From Mesorhizobium sp. SARCC-RB16n (lineage in GTDB: Bacteria > Pseudomonadota > Alphaproteobacteria > Rhizobiales > Rhizobiaceae): a stretch of 33,775 bases of DNA. Shown here one piece after another: positions 14,706 through 16,005 of the stretch. The notes beneath the pieces were generated by a model. That model saw nothing but the letters and a program-made list of their open reading frames with translations. It did not search any database and was not told the origin of the DNA. The position numbers and the translations under genes were made by a program. The DNA is taken from NCBI RefSeq assembly GCF_008520305.1, contig NZ_ML703288.1, forward strand, positions 29,745-63,519, given 5' to 3'. Each line of letters opens with the position of its first letter. Positions within the stretch are counted from its first letter, which is position 1.

Positions 14706-15239
14706 TTAATTGCGGGCGAACGCCGTGTTGAGCAGACTGATCTGGTCCGAGACCGGATTGGGTCGGCGAGCGACCGGCTGCATGTCGACCACCGCGCCGG
14801 CGCCATAGATCTCTTCGTCCATGCGGCGCACCAATGCCTGCAGGCGCAACGACCGGTTGACGAGGTCGAGGAAATCGGTCGGCAGTTCGGCCCAGCCGGC
14901 CGCCTCGTCATGAGCGGAAGCGGTGTCGAGGCGTACCTTGGACTTTTCCGAAGCGACCTGGTCGCGGGTCATCTCGCCGGAATTCGCCGCGCGCTGCAAA
15001 AGCAGCCACGAGGCGACCTGCATCAGCCTGGTGGTCAGCCGCATCGATTCGGCCGCGTAGAGCGTGGCCGCCAGCCGCGACAATTTCTTGGCCTCGGCCC
15101 GGCCCTTGCCGTCGAGATACTCCGCCGCTTGTTCGACCAGTCCCATGCCTTCCTGGTAAAGCGGTTTGAAGGAATGCGAAAAAACCCGACGCTCCGCCAA
15201 CTTGACGGTTTTCGCAATGCCCTTCGACGGCTCGTTCAT
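14706..15239 (-). CDS. rcdA: RcdA-family (DUF1465) regulator of CtrA degradation
   Basis: The 177-residue product is an all-helical DUF1465 protein; the Caulobacter member RcdA bridges CpdR-primed ClpXP to substrates such as CtrA and TacA, so this gene likely controls cell-cycle proteolysis. Recognisable features are the segment VFSHSFKPLYQEGMGLVEQA, the AAESMRLTTRLMQVASWLLL helix and DFLDLVNRSLRLQALVRRMD. Length is close to the Caulobacter protein. ATG 15239 follows AGGGG. The position just before ruvC is seen in other alphaproteobacteria. A perfect CtrA box (15355-15369) lies 116 bases upstream, consistent with feedback by the protein whose degradation it promotes. The family call is strong; function is by homology. 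Confidence 0.9.
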   Translation of the reverse strand: MNEPSKGIAKTVKLAERRVFSHSFKPLYQEGMGLVEQAAEYLDGKGRAEAKKLSRLAATLYAAESMRLTTRLMQVASWLLLQRAANSGEMTRDQVASEKSKVRLDTASAHDEAAGWAELPTDFLDLVNRSLRLQALVRRMDEEIYGAGAVVDMQPVARRPNPVSDQISLLNTAFARN

Positions 15240-15354
15240 TGATAACGCCCCTGCACTCGCAACCGGCCGATTCGGCTCTCTGCCGATACACCCGGGACTC
15301 TATATAACTGAAGCTTGAAAATGCGCTTCGTCCGGGGTGAAGGCAAGCACATGT

Positions 15355-15369
15355 TTAACAGAAGGTTAA
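15355..15369. promoter_or_regulatory. Perfect CtrA box upstream of rcdA
   Basis: TTAA-CAGAAGG-TTAA, an exact match to the full CtrA consensus TTAA-N7-TTAA, 116 bases upstream of the rcdA ATG. The best -10 I see for rcdA (TATATA at about 15300) is some 50 bases closer to the gene, so activation from a distal site, a missed promoter, or repression are all possible. Confidence 0.65.
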
Positions 15370-15407
15370 CGGCGATCGGCTGCGCGGGATACCGCCTGAA
15401 TGCAGAC

Positions 15408-15506
15408 AAAAAAAGAGCCGCGGATAAGGCGGCTCTCAGGAGTTTAACAGGGAGGCGTCAAACAAAGTGGCTCCAACCACTCGGTAAGAATCCAGATCAC
15501 TGGATG
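15408..15506 (-). ncRNA. Candidate CtrA-controlled trans-acting small RNA
   Basis: Predicted minus-strand transcript of about 100 nt. From 5' to 3' it has a 6-bp hairpin ATCCAG/CTGGAT (15490-15505), a second 5-bp hairpin AGTGG/CCACT (15466-15481), an unpaired stretch with GCCUCCCUG (around 15449-15457) that is complementary to ribosome binding sites, and an intrinsic terminator GAGCCGC-7-GCGGCTC followed by seven T (15408-15436). A -10-like TACTAT (15510-15515) is preceded at 14 bases by a CtrA box. This architecture matches alphaproteobacterial trans-acting sRNAs of the suhB/mmgR or EcpR1 type; I cannot verify which, if either. No open reading frame in it looks coding. Confidence 0.6.
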
Positions 15507-15529
15507 GACATAGTAAACGCCTGTAAAGC

Positions 15530-15544
15530 TTAATGAACCCTTAA
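15530..15544 (-). promoter_or_regulatory. Perfect CtrA box overlapping the -35 of the sRNA promoter
   Basis: On the minus strand TTAA-GGGTTCA-TTAA, an exact CtrA full site, then 14 bases to TACTAT. This spacing is what is seen at CtrA-activated promoters, where the box covers the -35 element. It is the second perfect site within 190 bases. Confidence 0.65.
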
Positions 15545-15570
15545 CATTCCTGATATTTTTTGACCCAAGA

Positions 15571-15605
15571 CCGTGCTTCTGTGCCGTAACAGCACAGAAG
15601 CACGG
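15571..15605. other. Strong 14-bp perfect hairpin
   Basis: CCGTGCTTCTGTGC / GCACAGAAGCACGG with a 7-base loop, 19 bases past the stop of the membrane-protein gene at 15625 on the minus strand. No T run follows on the minus strand, so it may be a 3'-end stabiliser, a Rho-assisted terminator, or insulation of the downstream small-RNA promoter. Confidence 0.6.
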
Positions 15606-15624
15606 GCCAGGTTTCGGCCTTCAC

Positions 15625-16005
15625 TCAGGCCTTTTTCCACACCACCGGCAAGGCAATGAAGGCGAACAGCAACATGCCTGCGTAGAAGCCGATCGACGAT
15701 ATCCCCAGCAACGGCTCGATCCCCGGATTTCCGGCAAGCAATATATAAAGGCCGATCATGAGCCCGATGCCGCTGATTGCCGTCAGCCAGAAATGGACGA
15801 GGGCCAGCGTCTTTTGCCCGGCAGCCGGAAACAGGTGGTAAAAGAACGCGAAGACCGCCGACATCAGCCAGCCAGCCACCATCGTGTGGGCGTGGGTCGG
15901 CATCTGGCCGTGGTCTTCGCTGATGGCCATGTGGATGCCGAGCGCCATGCCGCACAGCGCGTAGATGATCGCCAGCGTGAAGAAATTCCGTGCTACCCCT
16001 TGCAT
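15625..16005 (-). CDS. Small His-rich four-helix membrane protein (heme-copper oxidase subunit I-like)
   Basis: The 126-residue product has four predicted transmembrane helices (about 8-28, 42-60, 68-91, 101-122). Histidines sit in or next to helices at 25, 32, 38, 40, 57 and 71, and the segment MPTHAHTMVAGW resembles heme-ligand helices of cytochrome oxidase/nitric oxide reductase subunit I. It is far too short to be a full oxidase subunit. Such proteins are often annotated as oxidase-like or hypothetical. ATG 16005 follows GGGGGA. A 40-residue ORF lies 47 bases upstream on the same strand. A heme-binding or sensing role is inference. Confidence 0.75.
   Translation of the reverse strand: MQGVARNFFTLAIIYALCGMALGIHMAISEDHGQMPTHAHTMVAGWLMSAVFAFFYHLFPAAGQKTLALVHFWLTAISGIGLMIGLYILLAGNPGIEPLLGISSIGFYAGMLLFAFIALPVVWKKA

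Follow-up and report, generated by a model that had tools for sequence, protein, structure and literature searches.

Two predicted CtrA boxes frame a BjrC1505-family small RNA gene upstream of rcdA in Mesorhizobium and related Rhizobiaceae

Two tandem promoters on the minus strand, each with a predicted CtrA binding site, probably control a small RNA (sRNA) of the BjrC1505 family (RF02356) and the neighboring rcdA homologue in the window, i.e., the whole analysed stretch of 33,775 nucleotides. According to this model, in which we place considerable though not full confidence, CtrA~P bound to box 2 in the -35 position would activate an sRNA of approximately 100 nt, which would end at a strong terminator and may act in trans through an exposed CCUCCC loop. 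CtrA would also bind box 1, which immediately precedes the separate sigma-70-type promoter of rcdA, and would probably modulate this gene. The model is built on the boxes, their conservation, their almost constant distances from the sRNA hairpin and the rcdA -35 element, the RNA structure, and the presence of a CtrA orthologue in relatives; from these sequence features we infer CtrA binding in the Mesorhizobium source organism and activation from box 2. CtrA control of the sRNA thus appears well supported, whereas CtrA feedback via rcdA is plausible and the weaker arm. With this model, an orphan sRNA family of wide conservation would gain a candidate regulator and a place in the CtrA cell-cycle circuit.

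The minus-strand order is box 2, sRNA, terminator, box 1, and rcdA, with the following features:

15530..15544, minus strand: predicted CtrA box 2, palindromic, reading TTAAGGGTTCATTAA on the minus strand; -35 position of the sRNA promoter
15510..15515, minus strand: likely -10 element of the sRNA promoter, TACTAT; the TTAcT columns are conserved in the alignment
15408..15505, minus strand: BjrC1505-family sRNA of about 98-100 nt, from the hairpin ATCCAG-TGAT-CTGGAT (presumed 5' end) to the T-run of the terminator
15450..15455, minus strand: exposed CCUCCC loop of stem-loop 3, an anti-Shine-Dalgarno-like candidate seed in conserved columns
15413..15437, minus strand: intrinsic terminator stem-loop of the sRNA, from a terminator scan; T-run at 15408-15414
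15355..15369, minus strand: predicted CtrA box 1, reading TTAACCTTCTGTTAA on the minus strand; immediately 5' of the rcdA -35 element
15342..15347, minus strand: rcdA -35 element CTTGCC, 7 nt after box 1
15318..15323, minus strand: putative rcdA -10 element CATTTT, 18 nt after CTTGCC
14706..15239, minus strand: rcdA homologue (DUF1465/PF07323; Pfam E 3.6e-53), a CtrA proteolysis adaptor by homology

Exact TTAA-N7-TTAA matches occur in the window only at 15355-15369 (TTAACAGAAGGTTAA) and at 15530-15544 (TTAATGAACCCTTAA), which confirms both positions given in a preliminary description of this DNA, and its statement that such a pair is unlikely by chance agrees with 0 occurrences in 100 dinucleotide shuffles. 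Allowing one mismatch, six matches (two of them overlapping) were counted versus 0.84 expected. The assignment of the box at 15530-15544 to the -35 region of a small-RNA promoter was likewise borne out, as a known sRNA family with a likely promoter is located there. Both boxes had been placed in the gap between rcdA and the sRNA, which has to be corrected: the sRNA (approximately 15505 to 15408, minus, same strand as rcdA) sits between the boxes, so that the box at 15530-15544 precedes the sRNA and the one at 15355-15369 falls between the sRNA and rcdA, two genes separated by the terminator. A simple scan of 15200-15700 did not yield a consensus sigma-70 promoter. Upstream of the sRNA and on the same strand, a 126-aa ORF (window 15625-16005, minus) resembles COX1 weakly, with a score below the Pfam cut-off; this ORF was detected at only 22 of the first 59 loci.

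RF02356 is the sole Rfam RNA in the window (15551 to 15408, minus; 67.5 bits versus a threshold of 50). The region 15408-15508 folds into three stem-loops and the terminator with a z-score of -5.27 and exposes the CCUCCC loop, and in an alignment of 129 sequences standard pairs account for 97%, 89%, and 88% of hairpin 1, hairpin 2, and the terminator, respectively. For the pairs that the model draws in positions 1-46, standard pairing drops to 50% of the cells of this alignment, and 9 of these 12 pairs show some changes on both sides, as expected from loose columns. Due to the presence of box 2 and the -10-like TACTAT in this stretch (window 15506-15551, minus), the 5' third of RF02356 is read here as promoter DNA with a CtrA box, which suggests that it does not belong to the RNA. 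The RNA itself would comprise about 98-100 nt with a start near 15505. In the Rhizobium/Agrobacterium clade the sRNA (L142, L193, and L212) occurs with a different middle, GGTCTGATTTTTCTCCCTGTTTTACC, and several genomes are missed by RF02356. Two or three RF02356 matches per genome were observed in G060, G054, G014, G258, and G467, the second copy of G060 scoring above the threshold. A GANTC site 20-60 nt after box 2, just past hairpin 1, is present at 16 of 17 loci of the same genus, 56 of 91 loci of other genera of the family, and 3 of 21 loci of other families; this conservation may only reflect the hairpin sequence.

Non-conservation in close relatives had been named in advance as evidence against the boxes; both boxes turned out to be conserved. 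RF02356 matches were obtained in 58 of 61 relatives, 156 of 199 genomes of the family, and 30 of 289 genomes of the class. The sRNA-selected set consists of 129 loci taken from the searches of relatives and family (130 with the window), a part of all matches. Among these 130 loci, box 2 is exact in 96, has one mismatch in 32, and is worse in two, one of which (L128) ends at a contig edge. Exact copies are found at 16/17 loci of the same genus, 70/91 other loci of the family, and 9/21 loci of other families, and the half-site columns are 90-97% conserved, compared to 34-68% for the spacer columns. Since the RF02356 model includes the box 2 columns, sRNA-selected sets lean towards boxes. Free of this selection bias is a second set found by an RcdA alignment search of named genomes, composed of the best 80 of at least 585 confirmed relatives; these loci stay near its first entry, a Rhizobium (Rhizobium, Neorhizobium, Agrobacterium, Ciceribacter, and kin), and are closely related among themselves. 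Of these 80 loci (best 80 of at least 585), 61 carry an exact box 2 and 19 a box 2 with one mismatch. In their upstream regions, with the same restriction to the best 80 of at least 585, spacer 7 occurs 141 times versus at most 25 times for each of the other spacer lengths between 0 and 20, and the corresponding counts for 128 sRNA-selected loci are 174 versus at most 14.

The distance from the end of box 2 to the 5' hairpin is 24 nt in 90 and 23-25 nt in 115 of the 130 loci; the remainder consists of two loci with 28 nt, 11 without a hairpin call, and two without box 2. In the window, box 2 starts 39 nt upstream of the 5' hairpin. With the box ending about 24 nt before the hairpin, its 5' base would be situated near -39 of the sRNA, provided that the RNA starts at this hairpin. 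For Caulobacter, Zhou et al. associated full CtrA motifs near -35 with activation and located the motif of ctrA P2 at -39 (PMC4287350).

An additional search covered 25 genomes and yielded an rcdA locus in 22. Of the 25, two have very weak RF02356 matches and 23 have none; the latter comprise three genomes of the order and 20 of the family, in which 43 genomes lack a match. The ten closest of the 22 loci (L213-L222 of the Rhizobium clade, eight from genomes without an RF02356 match and two with a very weak one) all contain an exact box 1 and the sRNA core, and box 2 is exact in seven and has one mismatch in one; in L219 and L222, no box 2 with up to one mismatch was found. As shown by the sRNA core in all ten, Rfam misses divergent members in the Rhizobium clade. 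The other 12 rcdA loci come from other genera, other families, and genomes of 1-2 Mb: L223, L224, L226, and L231 carry one exact box each, seven loci have no exact box, and L234 gave no alignment. In the small genomes of L226 and L231 (1.5 and 1.2 Mb, respectively), one exact CtrA-type box lies upstream of rcdA although a search for the sRNA core string gave no match.

Box 1 is exact in all 80 RcdA-selected loci (best 80 of at least 585). In the sRNA-selected set it is exact at 17/17 loci of the same genus, at 66/91 loci of other genera of the family, three of which had no rcdA to test, and at 0/21 loci of other families, 17 of them with rcdA to test. A TTGC follows at a fixed distance in 84 of 84 loci in which an exact box 1 follows the sRNA, and in these 84 loci the -10-like CATTTT has A at position 2 and T at position 6 in 98% of cases each. 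The spacer of box 1 is partly conserved (TTAACC), unlike the freely varying spacer of box 2. Measured from the presumed rcdA start, box 1 would begin near -58 and not at -35. Considering the exact match in 80 of 80 loci, the fixed distance to the -35 element, and its persistence at rcdA genes whose sRNA is located elsewhere (see below), box 1 looks selected at rcdA.

An earlier prediction had placed a CtrA motif upstream of rcdA (PMC3616915). In S. meliloti, CtrA was reported to bind the rcdA promoter by ChIP-seq, and rcdA mRNA to be unchanged upon CtrA depletion; RcdA promotes the loss of CtrA in this species, with CtrA levels rising upon RcdA depletion and falling upon overexpression (PMC4433202). 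In H. neptunium, rcdA is reported not to be CtrA-regulated (PMC7200025). The strongest competitor of our model follows from these data, namely that CtrA binds both boxes, box 1 being without regulatory effect on rcdA, and that the CtrA peak assigned to rcdA matters for the sRNA only. We give this reading somewhat less than an even chance. It is in good agreement with the unchanged rcdA mRNA in S. meliloti and with the wider extension of box 2 than of box 1 across the class, but it leaves the strict conservation of box 1, its fixed distance to the -35 element, and its retention at distant rcdA genes unexplained. Of the CtrA feedback module proposed in the preliminary description, the sRNA half is thus well supported by sequence, while the rcdA half is merely plausible and partly contradicted in S. 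meliloti, where CtrA binds the rcdA promoter, yet its depletion leaves the mRNA unaltered. The tandem arrangement offers a testable reason for precisely this combination.

With respect to targets of the sRNA, ctrA mRNA was rejected, since the duplex energies of the sRNA core beat those of shuffled leaders at the 5% level in only one of ten genomes (10 of 24 ctrA loci used). In case of rcdA, window 15239-15269 and the rcdA leaders of relatives were inspected for CAGGG, which is complementary to the conserved CCCUG of the sRNA. This motif occurs in the rcdA start region of 45/105 loci of the family and 58/80 named loci (best 80 of at least 585) versus 1.2-1.5% of background genes, and at 0/17 loci of other families. 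By duplex energy, rcdA ranks 38 of 334 and 2 of 343 in two genomes. As the loci are related and the start codons uncertain, these observations are kept as a hint only. It is tempting to speculate that RF02356 represents an ancient sRNA of the CtrA regulon, older than its link to rcdA, which in the Rhizobiaceae became paired with rcdA and represses its translation via the C-rich loop, so that CtrA would protect itself through the sRNA while also touching rcdA transcription; we consider this extension unlikely as a whole.

A CtrA orthologue was found in 24 of 25 genomes searched. Exact TTAA-N7-TTAA sites occur 23-36 times per genome in six relatives (five of the nearest genus and one of another genus of the family), and since the reversed control pattern is about equally frequent in the same genomes (24-46), the motif is not over-represented genome-wide. 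Exact pairs with starts 157-187 bp apart were observed once per genome in all six relatives, always at the sRNA-rcdA locus; by our own arithmetic, approximately 0.003 such pairs per genome are expected by chance. Close pairs at other spacings, among the sites listed, comprise one of 195 bp in G010 and one of 26 bp in G118. Within 400 kb of G022, a genome of the same genus, spacer 7 gave four exact sites, all intergenic according to simple gene calls, versus three for 20 other spacers together; the respective counts in 400 kb of G118 are three versus seven. One of the four G022 sites is situated between dnaG and rpoD, and rpoD is reported to be bound by CtrA in Brucella (PMC3616915).

Because MucR1/2 and SciP were found at many CtrA promoters in Caulobacter (PMC4287350), the sites could instead be bound by MucR, SciP, or another protein of the OmpR family that shares CtrA promoters. 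The exact CtrA palindrome, the strict spacer of seven, the placement near -39, and the ChIP signal of CtrA itself at the S. meliloti rcdA promoter (PMC4433202) make this improbable.

An rcdA match is located on 122 of the 129 fetched sRNA loci. This frequent linkage, the common strand and order, and the terminator between both genes would also fit a cis-acting leader or attenuator of rcdA in place of an independent sRNA, with both boxes serving rcdA alone, an interpretation that we judge slightly less credible still than binding by another regulator. It is countered by the conserved -35 and -10 elements that rcdA possesses past the terminator and by genomes of the family in which sRNA, box, and terminator persist away from rcdA, at a distance of about 338 kb in G089, on different contigs in G187, and 4.6 kb apart in G076. 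In these three genomes both boxes remain exact, box 2 at the sRNA (L043, L048, and L067) and box 1 at the distant rcdA (L281-L283). In other families, G044 shows an exact box at the sRNA and rcdA on another contig without an exact box, G054 an exact box at the sRNA and no detectable rcdA, and G046 and G053 one-mismatch sRNA boxes and rcdA without a box on other contigs of fragmentary assemblies; an exact box is absent from the distant rcdA copies in other families (L286-L288).

Class-wide, 29 of the 32 matches listed were analysed (27 outside and two inside the order, 16 of the 29 below the Rfam threshold), and the box was taken as the best-matching site in the interval from 45 bases before to 30 bases after the model start. 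The best box is exact in 11, has one mismatch in 16, and is worse in two of these loci, i.e., 27/29 have at most one mismatch. A same-strand rcdA model match was obtained in 14 of the 29 loci; of the 15 without, a few being shortened by contig ends, 14 keep a box with at most one mismatch. Also at variance with a leader is the S. meliloti homologue, assigned by synteny, for which a Northern band of approximately 80 nt and, from RNA-seq, a transcript of 100 nt were reported (PMC2573895, PMC2873474). Hence, the box travels with the sRNA, the link to rcdA appearing secondary, and as the layout is common across the family and the sRNA's own box is found more widely, the sRNA would seem to be a so far overlooked branch of the CtrA circuit. 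Chance matches in AT-rich sequence are practically negligible as an explanation, since conservation, spacing, and pairing counts contradict them even though exact sites are genome-wide no commoner than the reversed control.

Among open-licence papers no link between this sRNA and CtrA was found. The sRNA of the window resembles BjrC1505 (RF02356) in that it scores above the threshold of this family. The presumed S. meliloti counterpart, Sm84/SmelC671, is encoded between SMc03988 and SMc03989, has been annotated with a sigma-70 promoter (PMC2573895), has relatives across several Rhizobiales families including ReC71 of R. etli (PMC3927594), and is listed for nodule zone II (PMC7143759). It lies about 14.3 kb from the 6S RNA gene on the opposite strand, and in six genomes of the Rhizobium clade the rcdA-linked sRNA occurs approximately 10-15 kb from 6S in the same arrangement and orientation. 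Sm84/SmelC671 is therefore probably the rcdA-linked sRNA, an identity based on synteny and not on sequence. The accounts of Sm84/SmelC671 and ReC71 considered here name no regulator or target.

EcpR1 and GspR are S. meliloti sRNAs likewise tied to the cell cycle (PMC4414408, PMC5928217). EcpR1 is located downstream of divK-pleD and GspR between SMc03844 and SMc03845, and the identity of the rcdA-linked sRNA with either was rejected due to these other loci. The 16-base EcpR1 promoter string gave one-mismatch matches only, in 3 of 24 genomes. CcnA of Caulobacter crescentus differs by its gene position at the replication origin and not beside rcdA and by its length of 182 nt; pairing with the ctrA leader is unconvincing for the rcdA-linked sRNA. 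Concerning C. crescentus rcdA, box 1 differs by its presumed position near -58 instead of -35, and the accounts considered mention no sRNA beside Caulobacter rcdA; common to both systems are the CtrA motif at rcdA, which in Caulobacter lies under a ChIP peak, and, provided that the sRNA starts at its 5' hairpin, a full motif placed like the activating one at -39 of ctrA P2 (PMC4287350).
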